A program made the translations under genes and the position numbers. The notes under the pieces are model-generated. The model had not been told where the DNA came from and did not search any database. It saw nothing but the letters and a program-made list of their open reading frames with translations. Source: an uncultured Selenomonadaceae bacterium (GTDB lineage: Bacteria; Bacillota; Negativicutes; Selenomonadales; Selenomonadaceae). From it: a DNA stretch of 64,000 nucleotides. Below, piece by piece: positions 7,231 through 19,572 of the stretch. Position 1 is the first letter of the stretch; each line of letters begins with the position of its first letter. The stretch spans positions 1 to 64,000 of the forward strand of contig CACYXR010000011.1 in NCBI GenBank assembly GCA_902778455.1. Reading direction: 5' to 3'.

Positions 7231-7497
7231 TCATTCGTCGGCCTCGATCAGTTCATGCTCTTTCAGGACGCTTCGTCCTGCTTCGACGTCTGCGATTGCC
7301 TTTTTCAATCGAGCCATATTGGCTTCGCTGAAAAACGGATCGGCTACGATCTCGAAAGGGATTTTTTGCTCTTGCGTCACTTTTGCCGCGAACATTGTAA
7401 ATGCGGAGGTCATCGTGAGCCCCATTTTTTTGCAGGTCTTTTCCATATTGCTTTTCAAGGCTGCGTCCATTCGGAAATTTACCATTGCTTGTGCCAT
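7231..7497 (-). CDS. RelB/DinJ-family antitoxin, orphan
   Basis: 88 aa. It starts with a ribbon-helix-helix segment (MAQAMVNFRMDAALKSNMEKTCKKMGLTM..., RelB/DinJ style) and ends in an acidic tail of the kind that wraps a RelE/YafQ-type toxin. ATG 7497 is preferred: GAAGGTG lies 6 bases before it. No toxin gene follows on the minus strand; the next features are a parS site and the symporter terminator. It may act on a toxin elsewhere or be a solitary regulator. Confidence 0.8.
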   Translation of the reverse strand: MAQAMVNFRMDAALKSNMEKTCKKMGLTMTSAFTMFAAKVTQEQKIPFEIVADPFFSEANMARLKKAIADVEAGRSVLKEHELIEADE

Positions 7498-7520
7498 GTC
7501 TATCACCTTCTTCCATCGTT

Positions 7521-7684: not shown

Positions 7685-7728
7685 AAAACGTGCGCTTGAC
7701 GTAAAAATACTGTCAGCGCACGTTTTCT
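7685..7728. terminator. Duplicated terminator, shared by vapC
   Basis: AAAACGTGCGCTTGAC / GTCAGCGCACGTTTT stem, a diverged copy of the hairpin at 7066-7112. It overlaps the last codons of vapC and has A-runs on its left side, so it can also end transcription on the minus strand. Confidence 0.7.
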
Positions 7729-8120
7729 TCAGCCCAATCTTCCACGCGCAAGCCGGGAATACGGCAAAATTCTTTCGTATTATGCGTTACGACAACTAGA
7801 TTCCTGGCGACGCCTTGTGCGCCTATCATCGCGTCATAGACCCCAATCGGAGTACCGCGGGATGCAAGCTCTGCCCGCAGCTTACCAAAATAAATAGCGT
7901 CCATTTCGTCAAACGGAATAATCTCGTAATTCGCAAGAAAAGCTTGAAAAATTTGTCTTGTACGCTCTCCCCAGCGACTCTTGGCCGCGCCATATTCCAG
8001 TTCGCCCACAGTAACGGAAGAAACAAAAATCGATTTCTGTTCTTCGAGAAGTCTTTGACCTAATGAAGGGAATGTCCCTTTCATTGCGTAGATGCAAATA
8101 TTTGTATCTATCAAAAACAT
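7713..8120 (-). CDS. vapC: VapC-type PIN-domain ribonuclease toxin
   Basis: 135 aa PIN domain. The acidic pocket residues are visible: Asp5 in LIDTNICIY, Glu in SSVTVGELEYG, and Asp in IGVYDAMIGAQ; the final THNTKEFCRIPGLRVEDW block is typical of VapC. Family members cleave tRNA or rRNA when released from VapB. The 5' end overlaps the vapB 3' end by 10 bases, so the two are translationally coupled. Confidence 0.9.
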   Translation of the reverse strand: MFLIDTNICIYAMKGTFPSLGQRLLEEQKSIFVSSVTVGELEYGAAKSRWGERTRQIFQAFLANYEIIPFDEMDAIYFGKLRAELASRGTPIGVYDAMIGAQGVARNLVVVTHNTKEFCRIPGLRVEDWAEENVR

Positions 8121-8356
8121 CCCATGGCCTCTCTTTCAGGCAGATCGGTCAGCATCGGCTGTTCTCTCTCGAATGGCGTGTCTTTATCCATTTGTCCAAG
8201 GCTCTGTTTTAACAAGGCTTGCGGATCGTCTACCGGAATCAGATAATAGCAGTTTCCGTATTTTTTGATAATGAACTCGGTTTGATCTGTCTGCATCTCT
8301 TTAGGTATGCGTATCGCTTGGCTGTTTCCGCTCTGAAAAACTTTTGCCTTCAACAT
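8111..8356 (-). CDS. vapB: VapB antitoxin (AbrB/SpoVT-fold DNA-binding)
   Basis: 81 aa. The N-terminus MLKAKVFQSGNSQAIRIPKEMQ is the swapped-hairpin AbrB-type DNA-binding domain of VapB proteins. The C-terminus (DKDTPFEREQPMLTDLPERE) is acidic and would block the VapC active site. It is the first gene of the vapBC operon and probably represses it through the palindrome at 8376-8396. Confidence 0.9.
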   Translation of the reverse strand: MLKAKVFQSGNSQAIRIPKEMQTDQTEFIIKKYGNCYYLIPVDDPQALLKQSLGQMDKDTPFEREQPMLTDLPEREAMGCF

Positions 8357-8419: not shown

Positions 8420-8803
8420 TCATCGTGTGTAGACGTTTTTTGTTGTACTCGTTTTTTGCTTCCGTTCCCGTGCGCGTTGCTGGGCATACTCAAAGGAAAT
8501 TTGGTTTTGGATTCGCTCTTTGGCGTCCTCGGAAAGCGTCTGGTATTTCAACATTAAGCTTTCGGCGTCGGCGTTGAGTCCTTTTTGCTTCAAGCGCGCG
8601 TGATCCTCTGTGCAGCCGAGAATATAGTCCGTAGATACGCGAAGCGCGCTCGCAAGTACAACAAGTGTTTCAAAGTCCGGCTCGCGGATACTCGATTCGT
8701 ATTTTGCGAGAGCGTGATATTGAATGTTGGTTCGTTTTGCCAAGTTGTCTCTTGTCAATCCGATTCGTTCACGGGCAGAACGAATCCTTGCCCCAAAGTC
8801 CAA
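8420..8803 (-). CDS. Xre-family transcriptional regulator
   Basis: 127 aa. Residues about 5-62 form a Cro/CI-type helix-turn-helix (RIRSARERIGLTRDNLAKRTNIQYHALAKYE...), followed by LGCTEDH and a helical C-terminal tail rich in Lys/Arg/Gln. The TTG start is chosen because AAGGGGG lies about 9 bases upstream. It is divergent from the 9.0-19.5 kb operon. Two related inverted repeats (8888-8904 and 8969-8987) lie between them, so it is the likely repressor of that operon and perhaps of itself. Confidence 0.85.
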   Translation of the reverse strand: MDFGARIRSARERIGLTRDNLAKRTNIQYHALAKYESSIREPDFETLVVLASALRVSTDYILGCTEDHARLKQKGLNADAESLMLKYQTLSEDAKERIQNQISFEYAQQRARERKQKTSTTKNVYTR

Positions 8804-8881: not shown

Positions 8882-8910
8882 TTGACTTTAGACGATACGT
8901 CTAATATACT
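8882..8910 (+). promoter_or_regulatory. Operon promoter with an operator in its spacer
   Basis: -35 TTGACT (8882-8887), 17-base spacer, -10 TATACT (8905-8910). The whole spacer, TTAGACG-ATA-CGTCTAA, is a perfect inverted repeat. A repressor bound there would sit exactly where RNA polymerase binds. The promoter faces the ankyrin/zinc-ribbon operon. Confidence 0.75.
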
Positions 8911-8968
8911 ATTTTAATAGAGTGTAATAAATATCGTAGTTCATTTGATTCAGTTTTATTAAGAAGAT

Positions 8969-8987
8969 TTAGACATACCGTCTATTA
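8969..8987. promoter_or_regulatory. Second operator-like inverted repeat
   Basis: TTAGACATACCGTCTATTA shares the AGAC-N5-GTCT core with the repeat at 8888-8904. It lies about 60 bases downstream of the promoter in the 5' leader, consistent with a second binding site for the divergent Xre protein. Confidence 0.55.
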
Positions 8988-9048
8988 TTTACTAAATAGG
9001 TAACAGTGCTTCTTGCATGTCACAAACCATAAAGGAGGCTCTTTGTCA

Positions 9049-10455
9049 ATGAAAAACAATCATCGTAGGTTTTGTGCAGCAACGACGGTTGCTGCTGTTC
9101 TTTTTTCAGCGTCGCCTATCGCGACGCCGGTCGCCCACGCAGGGTGGGGAAGTATTATCGGCGGCGTAATTGGCGGCATACTGAACGGAGGCGGTAGCGG
9201 CGGGAGTAGCGACGGCGGAAACGGCGGTGGAGCGATGGGCGGATTGTCGAATCAACAGCACGCACATCCGCATCCGAACGACAACGAAAAACTGTTTATG
9301 TTGGCAGTGGAAAAGAACGACATTGGCACAGCTAGTGACATGCTAAATGCAGGTGTTGATATAAATGGCGTATATCCTGATGGATATACTGGACAAACCG
9401 CTCTGATTCTCGCTATAAGAAATCGCAATTATGATATGATGCAATTCTTATTAGAAAACGGAGCCAATGTAAACGGTTACTATTCGTATAAAAATCACTT
9501 CATCTCATATATGGAACGTATTACAGATGCACACGGAGAAATAGAGTTACTACAATTCTTTATAAATTGGGGTGCGGATGTTAATTGTGCCTCAGATCGT
9601 AAAGATGGCAGAAAGCGATACCCGATTGATAACAGCACTGAACGTCACGCATGGGATAATGAAGACAGTGTTATCACTCAATTTCTAATAGACCATGGTG
9701 CCTATACTGAAAATAAAGATTCTGATGGTCGTACTCCATTCCTCAGAGTTGTTGGCGGTCGCAAGATAAAACTGATGAATGTTTTGGCGGATGGTGGAGC
9801 CGATATCAACGCCAAAGATAATCGTGGTCAAAACGCCCTGCAAATTGCGCTTGATATGAATGACCTGCAACTCTATAAAGAGGTACAGGACATCATGAAT
9901 CGCGGTCAGCAGCCGTCCCAATATCAGCCATCCAAGCCGCAAACTCAACATCGCACTTCCGAAAACGGCGGCAACGTTTCCGGAGACGACGAGCTTGTAA
10001 CCTTCGAGAACAAATCGAATCAGAACACGCGGATTCAGGAGCTTAACAATTTTAATGACGTCGTCATCAAAGCGATGAGGGCAGAACGGAAAGCAGACGA
10101 AACTCTTGACCAGCATATGAAAGACCATTCCGGTACAATATCCATCGCCGAACGTTCCACGTTCGCAAAGGAATATGTCGACGCCGCGAAAAAAATCAAA
10201 GATTCTTTAGAACCACAGACACTTCTCGGCAATTTGAACCATCTTTCTTTCGACGAGAAAGAACTTTGCAGCGACTTATTGCAAGTCATGAACACTCGAT
10301 ACGATAAACTAATTACTTTGTATAGTCTCCTTGCATTGAATCGCGAATTAACTCCAGAAGAGCAACAGAAAGCAAAAGTCCTAATAGAAGAAACACAAAC
10401 CTTGCGACAAAGCGTAATTGATATTTCGGGACGTGTAGACAAATTACCCCGATAA
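9049..10455 (+). CDS. Secreted ankyrin-repeat protein 1
   Basis: 468 aa. A signal peptide (MKNNHRRF...VAHA, cleavage near residue 32) is followed by a Gly-rich linker (about 33-70) and about five ankyrin-type repeats (about 80-290). Repeat signatures visible include LFMLAVEKNDIGTASDMLNAGVDING, MQFLLENGANVNG and DSDGRTPFLRVV. A linker and a helical C-terminal domain of about 150 residues end the protein. ATG 9049 is chosen over an earlier ATG at 9013 because AAAGGAGG (9031-9038) precedes it and it starts a clean signal peptide. It is first in the operon and paralogous to the gene at 11229. Probably a periplasmic or surface scaffold for protein contacts; the partner is unknown. Confidence 0.8.
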   Translation: MKNNHRRFCAATTVAAVLFSASPIATPVAHAGWGSIIGGVIGGILNGGGSGGSSDGGNGGGAMGGLSNQQHAHPHPNDNEKLFMLAVEKNDIGTASDMLNAGVDINGVYPDGYTGQTALILAIRNRNYDMMQFLLENGANVNGYYSYKNHFISYMERITDAHGEIELLQFFINWGADVNCASDRKDGRKRYPIDNSTERHAWDNEDSVITQFLIDHGAYTENKDSDGRTPFLRVVGGRKIKLMNVLADGGADINAKDNRGQNALQIALDMNDLQLYKEVQDIMNRGQQPSQYQPSKPQTQHRTSENGGNVSGDDELVTFENKSNQNTRIQELNNFNDVVIKAMRAERKADETLDQHMKDHSGTISIAERSTFAKEYVDAAKKIKDSLEPQTLLGNLNHLSFDEKELCSDLLQVMNTRYDKLITLYSLLALNRELTPEEQQKAKVLIEETQTLRQSVIDISGRVDKLPR

Positions 10456-10486
10456 CAAATTCCAGCCATAGAAAGGTGACATAATC

Positions 10487-11191
10487 ATGGAGACGCTTGG
10501 AAATCTGATTTTCATTTTGCTAATTTTGGTAGGCGTTTTTGTCTTTTCTTACAACCGCCTACAGAAAAGTGCGCAGAATGTCAAGAAATGGCAATCGAAT
10601 ATTCTGGCGCTGCTTCAAAAGTATGCGGATTGCATCAACAAATTGCAGGAAATCGTGGCCAATTATGCCGCGCATGAAAAATTGGTTCATTTGACCATTT
10701 CCAGCAACCTCACGGAAATGGTCAAGTCCACAAACAATGCGATGATCAATATCCAGGCATTGGCGCAAAGTTATCCGGCCTTGCAGGCGAATCAGAATTA
10801 TCAATCGTTGATGTGGGAGGTCTCGAATATCCAAACCCAACTACAGCAGTGCCGTTTTACTTACAATGAAGCGGTTTCCGTTTACAATGGGCTGATTTCG
10901 ACCATCCCAGAGGTTCTTTACGCTAAATCGCTCAACTTCAACGAGGCTCCGTATTACAATCCGGAACAGGAAGCGGAATTGCAAACCTTTACGACGGATG
11001 ACGGCACTGCGCTGAAAGAGCTTTTGCATAAGGGCGCAAGCATGACGATGGACGCCGCGCAGAGCGCGAAAAACAGTCTGCAATCCGCTGTTCAGGGGCA
11101 GACGGAAAAGAACACGGACGGTCAGGAGAAAGCTGCGCAAAGGGCTGCGAATAGCGAACAAGCGCAGGGAGGAAACGCTGCGAAAAAGTAA
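10487..11191 (+). CDS. LemA-family protein
   Basis: 234 aa. One N-terminal membrane helix (residues 5-22, out-facing start), then a four-helix LemA-type bundle with the family pattern SYPALQANQNYQSLMWEVSNIQTQLQQCRFTYNEAVSVYNGLI (quoted only in part: YPALQANQNYQSL, RFTYNEAVSVYN). The C-terminal 60 residues are Gln/Ala/Lys-rich and probably disordered. LemA proteins are membrane-anchored with unclear roles in envelope stress or protease systems. It is 31 bases after the ankyrin gene, inside the same operon. Confidence 0.8.
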   Translation: METLGNLIFILLILVGVFVFSYNRLQKSAQNVKKWQSNILALLQKYADCINKLQEIVANYAAHEKLVHLTISSNLTEMVKSTNNAMINIQALAQSYPALQANQNYQSLMWEVSNIQTQLQQCRFTYNEAVSVYNGLISTIPEVLYAKSLNFNEAPYYNPEQEAELQTFTTDDGTALKELLHKGASMTMDAAQSAKNSLQSAVQGQTEKNTDGQEKAAQRAANSEQAQGGNAAKK

Positions 11192-11228
11192 TTTGTATTG
11201 ATTGATAATTTGCAGGGAGGACTCGCCA

Positions 11229-12185
11229 ATGAAAAAAAGGTTTCTTGTTGCGGTGGTTCTTGTGGCGGTTGTAGCTGCGGCCTTGCCTTTCGTGATTCCC
11301 GGCGTTCAAAATACGAGTATTGGCAATATACTGAATGGCGTAATGGGCGGAAGCAAAAACGAAGCGGCAAATACGGAATCGACCAGTGGGATGCCGGCCC
11401 CTTCGCCCGAAGCAAAAAAAGAGACAAACGAGGAAAAAAGCGGCAATACGCAAAGTGATCCCAAAGACATGCTTTCGAATCAAAGCCACGCACACAAAAA
11501 TCCGAACGCAAACGAGAAATTGTTTCTATTGGCTGTAAAAAGCAACGATATAGGCACAGCAGAGCAGATGCTGAAGGCCGGTGTAGACGTTAACGGGGTG
11601 TGGCCCGACGCTAACTCGTATTCAACCAGTGCAACTGCCTTTTCCGTCGCATTGCGCGGGAAAAATTTAGATATGATGCAATTCCTGTTGAAAAACGGGG
11701 CGGACGTCAATGGATACTATGATTACAACAATTATCGTTATTGCTATTTGGAACGCGCAACAAATTCCGAAAAGGATATTGAGATTGTCAAATTCTTGCT
11801 GAACAATGGGGCGGACGTCAATGGCTATACAAGCAGGAATGATGGAGTAAAAACCATGGCAATTGACAACTGTACCAGCAAGTCGTCGGAGCGTCATGCT
11901 GCCGTTGCACAGCTTCTGATAGAACAAGGGGCGTATCTTGAAAACAAAGATGAAGAAGGCTTTACACCGTTCCTTAGAGCAATCAACCAATATAGCAGTA
12001 CGATGATGCGTATCTTTGCCGCTGCCGGCGCCGACTTGAGTGCAAAGGACAAAAAAGGCCGGGATGGTCTCCAAATCGCTATTGACAATAAAGATCTCCA
12101 GCTATACAAAGACGTGCAGGAAGTCATGAACCAAGGGCAAAAGCCATCCAAGTATCGTCCTTCCGACGCGTCGCCGCAACGCTGA
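11229..12185 (+). CDS. Membrane-anchored or secreted ankyrin-repeat protein 2
   Basis: 318 aa. MKKRFLVAVVLVAVVAAALPF is a signal peptide or anchor; a Glu/Lys/Ser-rich linker (about 40-90) leads to about five ankyrin repeats. The opening SNQSHAHKNPNANEKLFLLAVKSNDIG closely follows the corresponding SNQQHAHPHPNDNEKLFMLAV of the protein at 9049, and the order of repeats is the same, so the two are paralogs. This copy lacks the C-terminal helical domain. The start follows AGGGAGGA by about 9 bases. Confidence 0.8.
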   Translation: MKKRFLVAVVLVAVVAAALPFVIPGVQNTSIGNILNGVMGGSKNEAANTESTSGMPAPSPEAKKETNEEKSGNTQSDPKDMLSNQSHAHKNPNANEKLFLLAVKSNDIGTAEQMLKAGVDVNGVWPDANSYSTSATAFSVALRGKNLDMMQFLLKNGADVNGYYDYNNYRYCYLERATNSEKDIEIVKFLLNNGADVNGYTSRNDGVKTMAIDNCTSKSSERHAAVAQLLIEQGAYLENKDEEGFTPFLRAINQYSSTMMRIFAAAGADLSAKDKKGRDGLQIAIDNKDLQLYKDVQEVMNQGQKPSKYRPSDASPQR

Positions 12186-12261
12186 TTTATTGCAATACCA
12201 TTGCTTCGGCAGTAACGAAAGATGGATTACAAAATATAACCAAGAAAGGCGGTAAACCATC

Positions 12262-13260
12262 ATGGAAAACGAGAATAATAAACTGATTTGCGCAAAATGC
12301 GGCGCAGAGTTGGAATCGGACGCAATGTTTTGCTCGGAATGCGGCGCGCCACGGATAAATAATGAGAACGGGTCACAGGACGGAGTTCCCCAAGAAGGAA
12401 TTGCAGATGTATCGCAACCTGAAGCCTCGAAAGAAGAAGCCGTGATAATCGAAGCCCCACAGGACGAATTACTGACAGAAGCATCTAAACCGGAAATGCT
12501 TGCTTCTGAAACGGATAAATCAAAAGAAAACACACCTGCCGATGAATTACCGGCAGTGGAACTGCAAAATGAAGAAATGACAAACGTTGAGCCACCTGCG
12601 GAAAACCCGATAACAGCGGAATCTCAAAAGGAAGAGGCTTCTATCGCGGAACCGTCAAAAAACGAAAAATCGCCAGACGAAGAAGCGCAAAACGAACCGT
12701 CGCAAACAGCACCGCCTGCGCCTGCGGTTTCATCACAACCTGCGCATAAATTTTGTCTCCACTGCGGCGCGACACTTCCGCCGGATGCGCTCTTCTGCTT
12801 ATCGTGCGGCACAAAGCAGGACAGCGCGGCGCAACCCCAAGTCGTTACTCCGCCTCACGCTATGGCTCTGCAAATGCACCAGCAACCGCAACAGCAAATT
12901 CCGCCACAGCCGCAGGGCTATCCGCAACAACCGTTCCAACCAGGGTATCCGAGGCAAGGTTATCCGCAACAGCCGATGCAACAAGGCTATCCACAGCAAC
13001 CGCAAATGATCATTGCACAAACACCAAAAAGTATGCCGCTGGCGCTCATTCTCACGTTCTTTTTCGGGCCCTTGGGGCTTTTATACGCAAGCGTTCGCGA
13101 TGGATTGATTTTGATCTGTATTTCCATCGCGGTCGCATTTCTGACTTTGGGCTTTGGATTGATTTTTGTTTGGATTGGCTCGATGGTATGGGCTTATATG
13201 GATGTGGAAAAATACAATCGGGCGCTACTGAGCGGACAGATACCACCACAGGATTTTTGA
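12262..13260 (+). CDS. Zinc-ribbon membrane protein A (two zinc ribbons)
   Basis: 332 aa. Two CxxC...CxxC zinc ribbons: residues about 10-29 (CAKCGAELESDAMFCSECG) and about 168-187 (CLHCGATLPPDALFCLSCG), separated by a Glu/Pro-rich acidic linker. A Gln/Pro-rich stretch of about 60 residues follows. At the C-terminus are two membrane segments (about 258-305) around FFFGPLGLLYASV, ending AYMDVEKYN. The two paired helices resemble those of the protein at 13294. Function is unknown; zinc ribbons of this type commonly sense or scaffold at the cytoplasmic face. Confidence 0.75.
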   Translation: MENENNKLICAKCGAELESDAMFCSECGAPRINNENGSQDGVPQEGIADVSQPEASKEEAVIIEAPQDELLTEASKPEMLASETDKSKENTPADELPAVELQNEEMTNVEPPAENPITAESQKEEASIAEPSKNEKSPDEEAQNEPSQTAPPAPAVSSQPAHKFCLHCGATLPPDALFCLSCGTKQDSAAQPQVVTPPHAMALQMHQQPQQQIPPQPQGYPQQPFQPGYPRQGYPQQPMQQGYPQQPQMIIAQTPKSMPLALILTFFFGPLGLLYASVRDGLILICISIAVAFLTLGFGLIFVWIGSMVWAYMDVEKYNRALLSGQIPPQDF

Positions 13261-13293
13261 GATTCATAGAAACATCAGGAGGCGGAAAATATC

Positions 13294-13836
13294 ATGGACC
13301 CTAATGAAACAAAAAACAATGTTTGTATCAAGTGCGGTGCGGAATTGGAGGCGGAATCGCTGTTTTGCTCAGTCTGCGGCGCGAAACAGGAACCACCGAA
13401 AGAGGGCGAAGACGTTGCGAATGTACCCGCTGTCGCCCCTATGGCAGTAGCAAGTGTGCAGCAACCGCAGGAAGCGCCTTCGCAACAGCAACAGTCCGCG
13501 CCGCAGCAACCGCATATTCCCCCGCAACCGCAAACGCAAGCGCAACCGCAGCCCCAAATGATTGTCGCGCAAGCTCCGAAAAATATGATACTGGCGTTGC
13601 TGCTCGCGGCGCTCTTCGGCCCGTTGGGGTTGTTCTATGCGACAATCCCCGGCGGATTGATTATGTTGTGCGTTTTTATTGTTCTCTTCGTTATTATCAC
13701 GATCTTTACATTGGGGTTTGGCTTCTTTTTGCCATTCTTTATCATTTCTCCCACTTGTGTATTATGGGCATATATGGCGACCGAAAAATACAACGAACGA
13801 TTGATGAACGGGCAATCGCCGGCGCAAAGATTATGA
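13294..13836 (+). CDS. Zinc-ribbon membrane protein B (one zinc ribbon)
   Basis: 180 aa. One N-terminal zinc ribbon (CIKCGAELEAESLFCSVCG, about 11-29), a Gln/Pro-rich linker, and two C-terminal membrane helices with LFGPLGLFYATIPGGLIM and AYMATEKYNERLMNGQ. The C-terminal half aligns well with the protein at 12262, so this is a shortened paralog. It starts 33 bases after that gene, with CAGGAGG upstream. Confidence 0.75.
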   Translation: MDPNETKNNVCIKCGAELEAESLFCSVCGAKQEPPKEGEDVANVPAVAPMAVASVQQPQEAPSQQQQSAPQQPHIPPQPQTQAQPQPQMIVAQAPKNMILALLLAALFGPLGLFYATIPGGLIMLCVFIVLFVIITIFTLGFGFFLPFFIISPTCVLWAYMATEKYNERLMNGQSPAQRL

Positions 13837-13863
13837 TCCCGGAATTGCGAAAGGAGTAGTCGC

Positions 13864-15501
13864 ATGGAAACCAACGAGAAAAGGGTCTGCCCTCAATGCG
13901 GGGAGGAACTGGAAGAAGACGCGCTCTTTTGTACTGAATGCGGCGCTTCGTTGACGAAGAAAGAGGAACAGTCGCAAGCGGAACCTCCGAAGGCGGAGCC
14001 GCCCATCGAAGAACCGCCTGCGGAGCATCAAAAAGAAGAACTGCCGAGCGCGGAATCTCCGAAGGAAGAAGCGCCGACGGAGATTCCGAATGAGAATATA
14101 CCCGTGGGGGAAGCGCCGAAAGAGGAGAACGCCGCGCAGGAAGAACCTTCACAAGCGACAGAGGCCACTGTGGAAAGCGCGTCGCCGACCATGAACGAAG
14201 AAAAAACGGCTGGCTCGGGACAGCCGGACGTTCCCGCTGCTCCCATCCCTGCGGCGAAGCCAGAGAGAAAATTTTGTTTCCGTTGTGGCGCGTCGATTGC
14301 AATGGAAGCTGTGTTTTGCAATAAATGCGGCGCTCCGCAGGGAGCGCAACAACAAATTCAGCAGCCCCAGTCGACGAAATCACAGCCGCAATTCGCTGCG
14401 ACGCAAATGGGGCAAGCGCCATTGCCAAACAGCATGAATATCGACACAGCGGCCTTGAAATCTTGGATCAACAATGGCGGTCTAGGTCATATCCTGCTGG
14501 TCGTTTCCGTAATCTTAGCAGGCTCTGTTTTCATGCCGTTTGCGAAAGGCGACGGTTCGGGAAGCCTGAAGCTGATGGACATTAGCGTCCTCCTTTCCGT
14601 CGCGGTCCTGCTCATTGCCGCAGGGAGCGCTTTCGCGTCCCTGCGTGGAAAATATGAAATTCCCGTTATTGCGGGGCATAGCCTGTTCATTGTTTATGTG
14701 TGCGGCGTATTCAAATACCAAAGCGCAATGAAATGGGGCGGTTTTCTCCTGATCCCCGTCATTATCGGCTTGATTGTCGTCGGACTGATGGCAGCCCTCC
14801 AGCGTGATGGGAAAACTTTTGATTCGCATCTTTTAGGTGAAAAGTGGAAACAAATCATGGTTCAGCCGGTGCAAATTCACACGCTGAAATTGCAAGGTAT
14901 CTTTGGCGTTGTGGTGCTCGCGGTCTTGATGATTTGCATGCCGATGATTGGCAGCGTCGGCGATGTGATTGGATTAGATAAGTTTGAAGGAAGCTGGTAT
15001 CACATCAAGACAGGCGAGACGCCGCGCTTTATCAAAATTAAAAAAGTGGATGATGGAAAATACGCTTTTGCGGATTGTGCCTTATTCATTGCCTATCATA
15101 AAGACAATGGTGGCTATTATTTTACAACGGGTGAGTACGGCGGGATATTCTCTGGACTTACGATTAAGGAGCACCATATCTTTGAGTACGCAAATGAAAA
15201 AAAGAATACGATAGTCAATAAAAAACTTGGGCGTAATCCTGATTCATGGGAAAAATATTATTTTGACACTGAGCATAATGCGTTGTTGGACAATACGGAC
15301 GAGCAATATCTGCCAATGCACGAAGGGGATGAAGCGTTAAAAATGGCGTATGACGCATTGATTGATGATCTGAAGAAACAGGAAAAAGGCAAATTAAAAG
15401 GCGGGTTGCCTCCATTTGAAGATTATAAAAATGCTACAAAGCGCATTTTGGATGAAAAGCTAAAAGAAGAGGAGCAATATTATAAGCGGGAAACGCGGTA
15501 A
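13864..15501 (+). CDS. Zinc-ribbon membrane protein C with an extracytoplasmic domain
   Basis: 545 aa. Two zinc ribbons (about 9-27, CPQCGEELEEDALFCTECG; about 138-157, CFRCGASIAMEAVFCNKCG) are joined by an acidic Pro/Glu-rich linker. Several hydrophobic helices (about 212-375) follow. The last 170 residues form a polar domain with Trp/Tyr-rich beta-like segments (EGSWYHIKTGETPRFIKI) and a charged helical tail. The ribbon module is shared with its neighbours; the C-terminal domain is not recognised. It starts 27 bases after the previous gene. Confidence 0.75.
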   Translation: METNEKRVCPQCGEELEEDALFCTECGASLTKKEEQSQAEPPKAEPPIEEPPAEHQKEELPSAESPKEEAPTEIPNENIPVGEAPKEENAAQEEPSQATEATVESASPTMNEEKTAGSGQPDVPAAPIPAAKPERKFCFRCGASIAMEAVFCNKCGAPQGAQQQIQQPQSTKSQPQFAATQMGQAPLPNSMNIDTAALKSWINNGGLGHILLVVSVILAGSVFMPFAKGDGSGSLKLMDISVLLSVAVLLIAAGSAFASLRGKYEIPVIAGHSLFIVYVCGVFKYQSAMKWGGFLLIPVIIGLIVVGLMAALQRDGKTFDSHLLGEKWKQIMVQPVQIHTLKLQGIFGVVVLAVLMICMPMIGSVGDVIGLDKFEGSWYHIKTGETPRFIKIKKVDDGKYAFADCALFIAYHKDNGGYYFTTGEYGGIFSGLTIKEHHIFEYANEKKNTIVNKKLGRNPDSWEKYYFDTEHNALLDNTDEQYLPMHEGDEALKMAYDALIDDLKKQEKGKLKGGLPPFEDYKNATKRILDEKLKEEEQYYKRETR

Positions 15502-15525
15502 TAAGATTGTCGGGAGGGGTTGGAT

Positions 15526-16047
15526 ATGAAAAAGATTTTGATGATTTGCTTTGCGGTTTTGGTTCTTTGCCAAGCGACGGTGTTTGCAGCCGATTTTATC
15601 CCAAAAGAAGAATTATGTATCGGCGGTATTAATCTTGATTGTACACTGGGATATGTAAAAGAAATATATGGGGAACCCAAGGAAGTAATTAGGGAAGAAA
15701 GAGGAAAAGCTGGTACAAAAGTTGGGATTATTTACTATATAACCTATAAGTATTCGGATGCGTTTTTTGTTACAGGAAAGCTAAGTGAACGAGAATCGCA
15801 AGGAGAGGATGGTGCACGAATTGTCAGCATCCTTATTAAAGATAATTCTTTAGCAACTCCAAGCGGATTCACTGTCGGGATGCCATATTCGGCGGTGGTT
15901 GAAATGTTTGGAGAAAGACATAAAACAACATATAAAGATGTATCATTTTATAGTTATTCGCCAGATAGAGGCGGTAATAGAATAATAAGTTTTTATGTTA
16001 ATGATGCGGAAACAATAACGGAAATTAATGTATATAGCCAACATTAA
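15526..16047 (+). CDS. Small secreted protein, triplet member 1
   Basis: 173 aa with a clear signal peptide (MKKILMICF...TVFAA). The mature part has two similar halves: GGINLDCTLGYVKEIYGEP and TPSGFTVGMPYSAVVEMFGE. This G-x-x-x-x-V-...-G-x-P pattern resembles half-units of BamE/SmpA-like folds, by eye only. ATG 15526 follows GGAGGGG by about 8 bases. It is a paralog of the next two genes. The DNA here is noticeably more AT-rich than the flanking genes. Confidence 0.7.
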   Translation: MKKILMICFAVLVLCQATVFAADFIPKEELCIGGINLDCTLGYVKEIYGEPKEVIREERGKAGTKVGIIYYITYKYSDAFFVTGKLSERESQGEDGARIVSILIKDNSLATPSGFTVGMPYSAVVEMFGERHKTTYKDVSFYSYSPDRGGNRIISFYVNDAETITEINVYSQH

Positions 16048-16079
16048 CAAAGATTCCTTGCAAACTGGAGGCATTGAAA

Positions 16080-16589
16080 ATGAAACGGATTTTGATGCTT
16101 TGTTGCGCTGTACTGTTGTTTTGTCAAACCGTAGCTTTTGCACATGAGATGCCGGATGAGGAAATGTATATAGGCGGAATCACTGTAGGAGATACACTTG
16201 GATATGCAAAATTGATTATGGGCGCTCCAGAACAGATAATACGACAAAAATATACTGAAAAGCGAGATGTAGAATATCTGTATTCGCATGAAAAACTTTT
16301 GGTTCGTGGTGAGATGGAATGGGAGAAAAAGGTTGAAGAAGATGATTTAATTATTTGGAACATATCTATTCACGATAATCAATGGACAACCCCAAGCGGC
16401 ATAACGACAGGAATGCCGTATGCAGAAGTTGTTGCATTGTTTGGGGAAAGTTCAAAAGTGCATCGTACAATGAAACATGAAATGCATTTATACAAAGGGC
16501 AGAAAAGAAATATGTCGTTTTTCGTTGATTCGCAAACTGGACTAATTTCGTCCATTGGTGTTATTTCCCCATCCTTCCAAGGAATCTAA
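16080..16589 (+). CDS. Small secreted protein, triplet member 2
   Basis: 169 aa. Signal peptide MKRILMLCC...VAFA, then the same two-half layout: IGGITVGDTLGYAKLIMGAP and TPSGITTGMPYAEVVALFGE. ATG 16080 is set by GGAGG at 16067-16071. Between the halves the sequence differs from member 1, so the pair is an old duplication. Function unknown; probably periplasmic. Confidence 0.7.
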   Translation: MKRILMLCCAVLLFCQTVAFAHEMPDEEMYIGGITVGDTLGYAKLIMGAPEQIIRQKYTEKRDVEYLYSHEKLLVRGEMEWEKKVEEDDLIIWNISIHDNQWTTPSGITTGMPYAEVVALFGESSKVHRTMKHEMHLYKGQKRNMSFFVDSQTGLISSIGVISPSFQGI

Positions 16590-16679
16590 GCGATGAACAA
16601 ACAGAAAAGGAACTTCAAAAATGGCAAAGTTTTGAAAGCATTGCAATACATTTATATTTTGCAAGAAAGGTGAATGAAA

Positions 16680-17156
16680 ATGATGAAAAGAACTATAATG
16701 CTTACGCTAGGAATCCTTTTTGTGTTGTCGACAGTTTGCTTCGCGGATTATTTACCCGATTCTGAATTTGCCCTTGGCGGCATTTCAGTAAAAGATAATG
16801 TAACAATCGACTACGTCCGAAGTATTTATGGCGAACCACAACTTATATCAAAGAATGATTCTTCGGCAGAATACAGCTATGGGAACACAGTCAAAATTAA
16901 GGTGCATACATTCGGAAGAAAAAATGTGTTTTTCATAGAAACCACCGCCAATAACGGTTTTTCTACACCGTCTGGTCTGTCTGTCGGCATGACCGCAGAC
17001 GATATGATGGATATGTACGGTTCTCCACGAAGCGAAAGAGAAACGAAAGATGGAGGAACGCGTTATATTTATGGAGATAAATACAGAAGCGGAGGAAATG
17101 GAATATTTATAGAAACCAATGAACAGGGGATTATCATTATGATTCAAGTGCATTAA
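16680..17156 (+). CDS. Small secreted protein, triplet member 3
   Basis: 158 aa. Signal peptide MMKRTIMLTLG...VCFAD, then GGISVKDNVTIDYVRSIYGEP and TPSGLSVGMTADDMMDMYGSP, the same two motifs as the two preceding genes. ATG 16680 is preferred to 16674 because AAAGG lies 9 bases before it. It ends the AT-rich block; a 98-base gap with no visible gene follows. Confidence 0.7.
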   Translation: MMKRTIMLTLGILFVLSTVCFADYLPDSEFALGGISVKDNVTIDYVRSIYGEPQLISKNDSSAEYSYGNTVKIKVHTFGRKNVFFIETTANNGFSTPSGLSVGMTADDMMDMYGSPRSERETKDGGTRYIYGDKYRSGGNGIFIETNEQGIIIMIQVH

Positions 17157-17254
17157 AAAATGTCGCTTAATCGTTGCTCCACTATCCGTAGCAGAATGGC
17201 ATTTTGAATTAATGTTTTTAGTGAGTCCTTAAATCATAACAGGAGCGTGATCCA

Positions 17255-18760
17255 ATGGCGAAGTTTTGCAAGCATTGTGGCAGCGAATTGAAAGAAGGAA
17301 AGAAGTTCTGCGCGAAGTGCGGCACGCCGACGGGGGACGCAGTCGGTGCCTCGCCGAGCGCTTGGATTTGCCCTGCCTGCGGGCATGAGAACGCGAAGGG
17401 GAAATTCTGTGCCAAGTGTGGCGGCGGAAAGCCGGAGGAAGCTCCGGCTGCGTCAGTGGAAGAGCCCACGCCGCAAACGGACGAACGTAAAGCTGTAATT
17501 GCTCAACCGAGTGGTTCACCGAACACTTGGATTTGCCCCGCCTGTGGGCATGAGAACGCGAAGGGGAAATTCTGCGCCAAATGCGGCGGGGGAAAGCCGG
17601 AGGAAGCTCCGACTGCTCCGGCGGAATCTCCTGCGATTGAAGACGCGCCCACACCGTCTAAGGAAAGCGACGCTGTGCCGACGCCTTCCGGTTCACCGCC
17701 GGAAAGATTGGTTGCTCCTCCTTCGCCAACGAAAAGTATAGAGGCTGCACCGACGCCGAACGTACAAAACGACGTCCTGCCACTGTCCCCCGAGCAATCG
17801 CCAAAACTGAGCAATAAAAAATTGCCGATCCTTCTCGCGATCCTCGTTGTGGTGGCAGTAGCGGCCTTTTTCGGCAGCGGGAAGCTGGCAGATTCTTATT
17901 ATGCGTCGAAAGCGGAGGAATGCGCCGCCGTTTTGACGGAGAGCAAGACGCTGTTGGACAATCTTGCCGAGACGCCCGCAGATGCCGCGTCGGACGATGT
18001 GAAAAAAATCGCGGATGGACTCGCAAAAAACGCGGAAAAGCTCGAATCCATCAAAAGCGGCATTATGAGCAAACTGCCCAGAAAACCGCATCAAGAAAAA
18101 GTTTGGAACGCCATCGGAAAGAACGCGGAGATGCTTTCCAAGGCGGCAGCTATGGTGCAGTCGCAGGAACGCGCGTTTAATCCGGCGAGCATCAAGCGTT
18201 TCAACGCGCTTGGCGACGAGTGCATGGTCAAATGGGACGAGGCGAACGCGGCGGCTTCGGAAACGACGGTCAAGAACCGGCCGCTTACGGATTTGGTTCC
18301 CTATGCGGACATCAAAAAGGATTTGCAGGCGTTCCGCAGGAATAAGCAGGCATTTGACGCAAAATATGCGCAGGACAAATATAACGAACGCCGGAAGGAA
18401 CGGCAGGCCGCGCAGGAAGAGCTGAAAAAGAAACCCGAAGTCGTATTCCTTGCGGATAACGCTTATAAAAACGGAACCGAGCTCGTTTTAGAGGGGCGCT
18501 TTTACAATGGGACGCCCGATCTCGTGACCGGCGTTATCGATATGGAAGTGGATGTGAAGCTTTCCCTGTGGGACGCGGAGGTACAAAGCCTGACGAACGA
18601 GCCTTGCGCCTTGAACCTGACAGGGCTGCAGCTTGCACCGCAGCAAGCGACGGGCGCTGTGCAGCTCCGGTTGCAGGGGAAAGCGCCGGAAGGGGATTTC
18701 AACGATTTTGAGGATCATGTGCATAAAATCCGTTGGAGCCGGATGAAGGCTCGTTCATAA
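17255..18760 (+). CDS. Zinc-ribbon membrane protein D (three zinc ribbons)
   Basis: 501 aa. Three zinc ribbons: about 5-23 (CKHCGSELKEGKKFCAKCG), then two near-identical CPACGHENAKGKFCAKCGG units about 55 residues apart, encoded by a DNA direct repeat. A Pro/Ser-rich linker, one membrane helix (about 190-208, LLAILVVVAVAAFFGSG) and an extracytoplasmic domain of about 290 residues follow. That domain is helical and Lys/Ala/Glu-rich, ending in a beta-rich FxRRF-like part (LVLEGRFYNGTPDLVTGV). It resembles other zinc-ribbon/YvbJ-like membrane proteins in layout. Partner and role are unknown. Confidence 0.75.
   Translation: MAKFCKHCGSELKEGKKFCAKCGTPTGDAVGASPSAWICPACGHENAKGKFCAKCGGGKPEEAPAASVEEPTPQTDERKAVIAQPSGSPNTWICPACGHENAKGKFCAKCGGGKPEEAPTAPAESPAIEDAPTPSKESDAVPTPSGSPPERLVAPPSPTKSIEAAPTPNVQNDVLPLSPEQSPKLSNKKLPILLAILVVVAVAAFFGSGKLADSYYASKAEECAAVLTESKTLLDNLAETPADAASDDVKKIADGLAKNAEKLESIKSGIMSKLPRKPHQEKVWNAIGKNAEMLSKAAAMVQSQERAFNPASIKRFNALGDECMVKWDEANAAASETTVKNRPLTDLVPYADIKKDLQAFRRNKQAFDAKYAQDKYNERRKERQAAQEELKKKPEVVFLADNAYKNGTELVLEGRFYNGTPDLVTGVIDMEVDVKLSLWDAEVQSLTNEPCALNLTGLQLAPQQATGAVQLRLQGKAPEGDFNDFEDHVHKIRWSRMKARS
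17361..17618 (+). repeat. Direct repeat encoding duplicated zinc ribbons
   Basis: Bases 17361-17453 and 17526-17618 are about 93-base direct repeats, 165 bases apart, differing at only a few third positions. Each encodes one WICPACGHENAKGKFCAKCGG unit. It is a recent in-frame duplication. Confidence 0.85.
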
Positions 18761-18773
18761 GGGAGGATGCTGT

Positions 18774-19514
18774 ATGAAGAAAACGCGATTACTGTTGCTG
18801 ACTCTTGTTTGTCTGTTGACTTTCTGCGTTTCCACGGCTTTCGCCGGTTCGTTTTCCATGTTGGCGTCCACGGGAACATTGCAGCTTTCCAACAACCAGG
18901 CGTGGAAGCAGGAATATAAGACGGACATCGGGAAATTCAAGATCAGTTTCCGCAAGATGTGGAACAGCTCCGACAAGAAGAAATACCATCTGTTTATCGA
19001 GTGGGACGGCAAACGCATTGCCGACGGTTATTGTCCGACTAACAACACCGGTTACAGCTTCAAGATTTTCCAGGATCAGCAGACCAGCCGCATTTTCGTC
19101 GCGCTGGAGACGCGTGACCGCATTGTGTTAATGGGCTATGATCCAGTTGCTAATCGGCTGGAAAAGTATGTGGACAGCAGGGACTATCGAAGCAGGCGAG
19201 GAAATCCGCGAATCTTGGTGGATAAGGACAAGGATTTGGTGTTGTCCTTTATCGGGGACGGGCACGGGATTCCGACGGAGTACAAGTTGTTTTGGGACGC
19301 CGAGAATAATTGGTTCGGCTACAAGGACGTTACCGCCCATCCTCCTGCGTCTGAAACGGACGAATCGGAGTACGAGCCGGGAGATGAGGCGGAATATGAA
19401 CCGGAATATGAGCAGCATTACGAGCCTCAAGCCGTAAGCAGCGCTGAGAGCGCATCTGCCACAGCGACTGACGAGCTTTTCTACTACGAGGAAGAGATCG
19501 TGGTCGGCAGCTGA
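18774..19514 (+). CDS. Secreted protein, last gene of the zinc-ribbon operon
   Basis: 246 aa. Signal peptide MKKTRLLLL...TAFAG, a mature domain of about 165 residues rich in aromatic and charged residues (FKISFRKMWNSSDKKKYHLFIEWDGK), and a very acidic Glu/Tyr/Ser tail (SEYEPGDEAEYEPEYEQHYEP). I do not recognise the family. The start follows GGGAGG, 14 bases after the previous stop. A terminator follows, so this ends the operon. Confidence 0.7.
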   Translation: MKKTRLLLLTLVCLLTFCVSTAFAGSFSMLASTGTLQLSNNQAWKQEYKTDIGKFKISFRKMWNSSDKKKYHLFIEWDGKRIADGYCPTNNTGYSFKIFQDQQTSRIFVALETRDRIVLMGYDPVANRLEKYVDSRDYRSRRGNPRILVDKDKDLVLSFIGDGHGIPTEYKLFWDAENNWFGYKDVTAHPPASETDESEYEPGDEAEYEPEYEQHYEPQAVSSAESASATATDELFYYEEEIVVGS

Positions 19515-19530: not shown

Positions 19531-19572
19531 AGAGCGGGAAGACGCGACTGCGTTTTCCCGCTCGTCTTTTTT
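19531..19572 (+). terminator. Terminator of the zinc-ribbon operon
   Basis: GAGCGGGAA...TTCCCGCTC stem (19532-19563) followed by GTCTTTTTT. Confidence 0.85.

Follow-up and report, generated by a model that had tools for sequence, protein, structure and literature searches.

Results

Gene content of the locus

The window, by which we mean the whole 64,000-nucleotide stretch of an uncultured Selenomonadaceae genome analysed here, holds eleven genes (A–K) that run along the + strand from 9049 to 19514 with a longest intergenic gap of ~98 bp. The original prediction had counted a ten-gene operon; its common strand and short gaps hold, while the gene number is eleven. The features of the locus are listed below.

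7713–8356, − strand: VapBC-like toxin-antitoxin pair, a neighbour in the same inserted island and not an operon member
8420–8803, − strand: Xre-type regulator, divergent from the operon (HTH_3, 43.1 bits against a cut-off of 23)
8882–8910, + strand: operon promoter TTGACT-17-TATACT, whose spacer is the operator palindrome at 8888–8904
8969–8985, no strand assigned: second Xre operator, 81 bp downstream of the first
9049–10455, + strand: A, exported ankyrin protein (Pfam) with a glycine-rich N-terminal stretch; middle hypervariable relative to genome G068
10487–11191, + strand: B, membrane-anchored LemA-family protein (PF04011; matches the solved LemA structure 2etd)
11229–12185, + strand: C, ankyrin protein (Pfam), exported or anchored, paralog of A
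12262–13260, + strand: D, two zinc ribbons (Pfam) and two TM helices
13294–13836, + strand: E, zinc ribbon (Pfam) and TM helices, paralog of D
13864–15501, + strand: F, two zinc ribbons (Pfam), about five TM helices and a C-terminal extension
15526–16047, + strand: G, exported, member of the G/H/I family by paralogy
16080–16589, + strand: H, exported, member of the G/H/I family by paralogy
16674–17156, + strand: I, exported, member of the G/H/I family; start ATG at 16674 or 16680
17255–18760, + strand: J, three zinc ribbons, one TM helix and an ectodomain (Pfam, structure prediction)
18774–19514, + strand: K, exported beta protein following J, with a conserved C-terminal ELFYxEEEIVxGS tail (sequence, model)
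19532–19563, + strand: intrinsic terminator, 14-pair stem with 9 GC pairs and a T run

The promoter was the best + strand match at the operon head in a promoter scan (10/12) and the terminator has the longest stem of the region, in agreement with the single promoter and single terminator originally proposed. Weak promoter matches inside the operon were somewhat more frequent than expected from shuffled sequences (26 versus 15.6 ± 3.9), and a single transcript covering A–K is likely.

The zinc ribbons of D, E, F and J exceeded the Pfam cut-off, with eight CxxC-CxxC ribbons in total by motif, and gene B matched PF04011 with 71 bits (cut-off 26.2) and 2etd with an E-value of 9e-17. Together with the Pfam assignment of A and C, this bears out the four zinc-ribbon membrane proteins, two ankyrin proteins and one LemA protein of the original prediction; its four signal peptides have to be raised to six proteins with an N-terminal export signal or anchor (A, C, G, H, I and K), as read from the sequences. 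Gene B is a LemA-family member by sequence, but differs from the ordinary lemA gene of the same genome (28% identical) in lying within an ankyrin/zinc-ribbon operon. The operon contains three sets of paralogs: G/H/I, D/E and A/C.

The model of the J ectodomain (pLDDT 88, good confidence) shows five helices in a bundle and then a beta-sandwich; that of K (71, moderate confidence) has 13 strands, similar to a portion of a propeller, and a disordered tail that ends in the ELFYxEEEIVxGS motif. A fold search of both against the PDB gave no convincing relative, a result that says nothing firm about the novelty of the folds; the top Z-scores (12.7 for a helical bundle and 8.2 for a beta arc) are within the range of merely common arrangements, and no fold identity was assigned. 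For the G/H/I family, an identity with BamE is doubtful, the BamE-like profile PF04355 scoring below its cut-off (gene I, 15.0 versus 23.2 bits; a weak match in one of eight family members). A putative beta-lactamase inhibitor protein was also matched weakly (E 0.25).

Two further features of these proteins extend beyond the operon. A glycine-rich stretch of the G-x-I-I-G-G type directly behind the signal peptide is common to otherwise unrelated exported proteins, namely ankyrin, M48 peptidase and carboxypeptidase-regulatory-like proteins (window 9049–9240; L063 12796–13428; L068 1459–3231; L106 12193–13047), and is perhaps a common membrane-associating segment. Outside such operons, many genomes of the family carry a shorter paralog of K (~200 residues, ~35% identical), one example being G000:C19 (L107 6354–6974).

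Conservation of the operon

The gene order is retained in two relatives from the same genus. Genome G035 carries A-B-C-D-(X)-F-(Y)-G-H-J-K on a single contig. In G068, whose symporter protein is 98% identical to that of the window, the genes are split between two contigs, A-B-C-D-(X)-F and (Y)-G-H-J-K. The additional genes X and Y encode a small exported protein and a lipoprotein similar to LppM (match below cut-off), respectively; the window has neither at these places, and E is an extra D-like gene there. More distantly, G009, from another genus, has a D/J fusion followed by K, a lipoprotein, A and G, and J-K is kept in Schwartzia succinivorans (G020) and in an Anaerovibrio genome (G105). 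Other genera of Selenomonadaceae thus repeatedly show a J-K(-A-G) core. Wherever the upstream side of an operon-type K locus is visible, K comes directly after a J-family gene; at G101 the contig ends too early to show that side. Scattering of the genes in relatives, named in the original prediction as an argument against it, was not seen in the near relatives; the distant genera have subsets only, and the eleven proteins therefore need not all act together.

The K profile matched in 7 of 398 genomes of the phylum, all seven from the same class. The J ectodomain profile gave a clear match only in the window's own genome within a 299-genome phylum sample, which by chance includes few of the relevant genera. 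J-like genes also stand beside a tubulin-like protein and a 1,100-residue protein with an MreB-like region (L061 1424–6304, from the Anaerovibrio genome G105, where the J-like gene occurs with K; L067 27–4807, from G011), a neighbourhood that is a different, larger system sharing the J module. Clusters of zinc-ribbon membrane proteins without J-K ectodomains were observed as well (L058 5048–7209 and 11725–17104 in G005; L059 6543–11661; L069 6418–10760 in G072), two of them behind recombinase switches.

Two chromosomal sites

In the window and in G068, the block follows vapBC-Xre. The window's island has a sodium/solute symporter on one side and a universal-stress-protein gene on the other. 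These two genes adjoin directly in G035, forming an empty site that lacks the vapBC island, and the operon of G035 lies instead between a PLP-dependent decarboxylase and an ordinary lemA gene. These latter two genes adjoin in the window's own genome, where the second site is thus empty. Beside the same decarboxylase, G055 has Xre and gene A, and G077 has Xre and a J-like gene. The symporter was taken as site marker in place of the flanking TetR gene, which was discarded since elsewhere only ~60% identical paralogs were found.

Transport by phage or plasmid was considered and rejected: K was not found in viral contigs, neither J nor K was found in plasmids, and gene A matched only generic ankyrins of Wolbachia phages among phage sequences.

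Probable control by an Xre-type regulator

In the operon promoter, the −35 and −10 boxes are separated by precisely the palindrome TTAGACGATACGTCTAA, which takes up the whole 17-bp spacer. Sites with up to two mismatches to the operator occur only at 8888 (no mismatch) and 8969 (one mismatch) in the 64 kb. The divergent Xre gene and operator repeats originally described at the operon head are real. The position of the palindrome within the spacer suggests that Xre would repress the operon promoter. The vapBC and relB-like neighbours are likewise real according to Pfam; the PIN domain of the VapBC-like pair exceeded its cut-off and the VapB (MazE-like) match fell below. The RelB-like antitoxin gene (window 7231–7506) has no obvious adjoining RelE-type partner.

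Six of the 11 genomes of the genus have the promoter-operator layout, once per genome and beside an Xre gene, and a reversed control pattern gave no match in the same 11 genomes. The second operator, located 81, 80 and 79 bp downstream in the window, G068 (three mismatches) and G055, respectively, was seen only in these three, where the cargo starts with gene A; a search in G006 and G106 found none. In the latter two genomes, the same vapC-Xre island and promoter drive a single hexapeptide-repeat transferase-like (acyltransferase-like) gene unrelated to the operon (L123 6735–7679 in G006; L131 4550–5494 in G106). Given this cargo and the single promoter copy per genome, Xre is probably a single-target local regulator coupled to more than one cargo. 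Between the window (8628–8803) and G068 (L055), the DNA encoding the N-terminal, DNA-binding half of Xre is ~65–70% identical and that of the C-terminal half ~85%; the main operator is nonetheless conserved.

A predicted recombinase switch in relatives

The Xre operator is absent ahead of gene A in G035. Here, a resolvase-family recombinase gene (Resolvase, 109.7 bits) ends ~226 bp upstream of gene A, and the intervening DNA contains two 26-bp sites, GTTCAAAAAAGC-AC-GCTTTTTTGAAC and GAACAAAAAAGC-GT-GCTTTTTTGAAC, the core dinucleotide of the second being inverted relative to the first. The sites are identical at 24 of 26 positions when inverted (core AC/GT), and site 1 doubles as a terminator-like hairpin. 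A resolvase-family recombinase with paired inverted 12-2-12 sites flanking a promoter, as in Hin/Gin-type systems, is thus found at G035, with a weak promoter match inside the segment (P 0.13); the single orientation represented points away from the operon. The decarboxylase site accordingly carries alternative switches, Xre with operators in G055 or the serine recombinase with its inverted sites in G035.

Relatives of the recombinase were present in 48 of 121 genomes sampled from the family. Downstream sequence was sufficient at 42 recombinase loci; 28 of these had a significant site pair, beating all 100 shuffles, and each of the ten pairs with an asymmetric core was inverted, none direct. 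At another locus, G066 and G053 carry the DNA between the two sites in opposite orientations (91% identical), with a collinear recombinase gene (L166 versus L169); the TATAAT box inside this segment points toward the cargo in one genome and away from it in the other. The site-pair statistics and this inversion argue that the recombinase modules are a family of promoter-inversion switches, among whose cargo the window-type operon would count in G035; inversion at G035 itself is predicted from its sites. Named by eye from translations, the cargo of such modules includes the J-K-A-G operon of G009, glycosyltransferase operons, flagellin and hook genes, double-glycine peptides, ABC/HlyD exporters and zinc-ribbon clusters. 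The modules were observed in regions 3' of the recombinase genes in L052, L059, L069, L106 and L162–L201.

Mosaic divergence

Between the window and G068, its closest relative, LemA and the flanks are ~97–98% identical and the exported parts mostly 55–89%. Along the island, nucleotide identity is 98–99% in vapBC, 63–87% in Xre and the operon head, 55–89% in A, 92–99% through lemA and 63–81% in C; in J it is 92–94% for the zinc ribbons and mostly 70–86% for the ectodomain, and most of K is at 87–96%. Synonymous divergence follows, with dS values of 0.15 for the symporter, 0.08 for VapC and 0.14 for LemA, against 0.94 (A), 1.9 (C), 1.3 (D), 2.3 (F), 1.4 (G), 1.5 (H), 0.51 (J) and 0.42 (K), those of G and H being upper bounds since the pairings are perhaps not strict orthologs. 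Residues 1–226 of A are 92% identical to G055 and 68% to the much closer G068.

The dN/dS ratios of the operon genes (0.07–0.4) demonstrate purifying selection on every operon gene measured. Rapid positive selection was rejected, as dS is raised as much as dN and dN/dS is at most ~0.4. Divergent functional alleles, mainly of the exported or outward parts, appear from these comparisons to have been exchanged around a LemA gene that is nearly unchanged in the middle. The raised dS could partly stem from one old replacement of the whole block rather than from repeated exchange.

Discussion

The mobility of the operon as a unit, its two kinds of switch and its divergent exported alleles together point to a probably variable cell-envelope structure. 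Judged by sequence comparison, the operon as a unit, its operators, its mobility, the alternative switches, the mosaicism and the inversion of the switch family at another locus are fairly secure. The regulated unit of membrane and exported proteins in the original prediction stands, with gene order kept and an operator in the promoter; that its products form an envelope-spanning assembly, are exposed at the surface and act outward is what we infer. We see about an even chance that the locus is a mobile envelope operon encoding an inner-membrane-anchored assembly with exported partners and LemA, placed under Xre or an invertible promoter and variable in its outward parts.

A possible model is that the products form or service an assembly with D, E, F and J as its inner-membrane anchors and the exported A, C, G, H, I and K and LemA as partners. 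Transcription would normally be blocked by Xre bound to the palindrome inside the promoter spacer, aided by the second operator ~80 bp downstream, and some signal, or the loss of Xre, would switch the whole block on. At the decarboxylase site of relatives, the invertible promoter of a local serine recombinase may replace Xre, and only a fraction of the cells would then express the operon. Exchange of divergent alleles would affect the exported ankyrin region, G/H, F and the J ectodomain, whereas LemA, the J zinc ribbons and most of K remain alike; the outward parts therefore probably meet something variable, such as phages, protists, competitors or partners.

The original prediction had also offered a defensive or stress-related role, and neither half of this suggestion found direct support. 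In an envelope stress or maintenance system, modelled on TcaA-type proteins or on PSP/Lia, the zinc-ribbon proteins would sense damage or the metal/redox state, the exported partners would stabilise the membrane, and derepression of Xre would be the response. The membrane topology, zinc ribbons, LemA and dedicated regulator would all suit such a system. In broad outline, the operon has in common with PSP/Lia (PMC11237479) that several membrane-associated proteins are encoded together with a regulator of their own; it differs in that Pfam scans of the eleven proteins detected no PspA, PspC, LiaF or Toastrack domain, nor another named stress family. TcaA/YvbJ-type proteins combine an N-terminal zinc ribbon, one TM helix and a large ectodomain. 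J has the same layout, but with three ribbons and an ectodomain of its own; it did not match the TcaA model NF053815, for which the best score was 12.8 bits (gene F; cut-off 550). A housekeeping system, moreover, needs neither a stochastic switch nor mosaic outward alleles, and the combination of topology, mobility, switchable control and variable outward parts agrees better with an envelope structure that is costly or recognisable; we regard the stress reading as unlikely.

Defence against phages or competitors, induced on attack, would account for a mobile island marked by toxin-antitoxin genes, for Xre control and for the allelic diversity. The operon nevertheless encodes no nuclease, NTPase or known effector, no specific defence model of PADLOC-DB matched (generic ankyrin and HTH matches only, in a scan covering the operon proteins other than E, H and I), which led us to reject a known anti-phage system, and the lack of viral or plasmid copies described above also counts against a defence operon, making it quite improbable. 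The acyltransferase-like gene behind the Xre promoter in G006 and G106, and the gain and loss of genes (X and Y in G035/G068, the extra E in the window), could instead indicate a hot spot for surface loci in which cargo is swapped behind one promoter and no single machine exists. Against such a loose collection stand the order conserved at two sites, the J-K(-A-G) core recurrent in other genera and the purifying selection on each operon gene measured, and we find it distinctly improbable.

A mobile surface-type locus under switch control is of a known sort, and its cargo is unnamed: searches of the literature and of family libraries yielded no name for such a gene set and no matching system. 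Invertible promoters near surface genes are an established idea, as treated in a gut inverton survey (PMC11892184), and DNA inversion in Bacteroides fragilis (PMC4747536) is a named comparison for such promoters. The G035 operon resembles invertons in being preceded by a recombinase gene and inverted sites, and the recombinase family controls surface-type cargo elsewhere in Selenomonadaceae; the differences are that the window copy uses an Xre operator and that inversion in G035 is a prediction. As a speculative and rather doubtful extension of the mobile envelope operon, the locus may represent a class of envelope machine in diderm Bacillota that has not been described before. Its core would be J-K, a zinc-ribbon membrane anchor and an exported beta protein whose C-terminal tail is conserved, while the exported ankyrin and G-type modules would be exchangeable; expression of one and the same surface structure would be controlled in some lineages by a signal, through Xre, and in others stochastically, by an invertible promoter.

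The analysis adds to the original prediction an Xre regulator shared with other cargo, a predicted invertible promoter as its replacement, mobility and an allelic mosaic, and thereby describes an unnamed operon that keeps together as a unit, changes chromosomal site, differs in its exported parts and comes under either of two very different switches. One species has this cargo under a repressor and another has it at the same place in the chromosome under a DNA-inversion module, so that signal-driven control can be compared with random control in a natural setting. The recombinase-plus-site modules provide a ready list of candidate phase-variable loci in the family, covering flagellin, polysaccharide and peptide export, and the operon itself, if confirmed, would be a new phase-variable envelope structure for rumen Selenomonadaceae.
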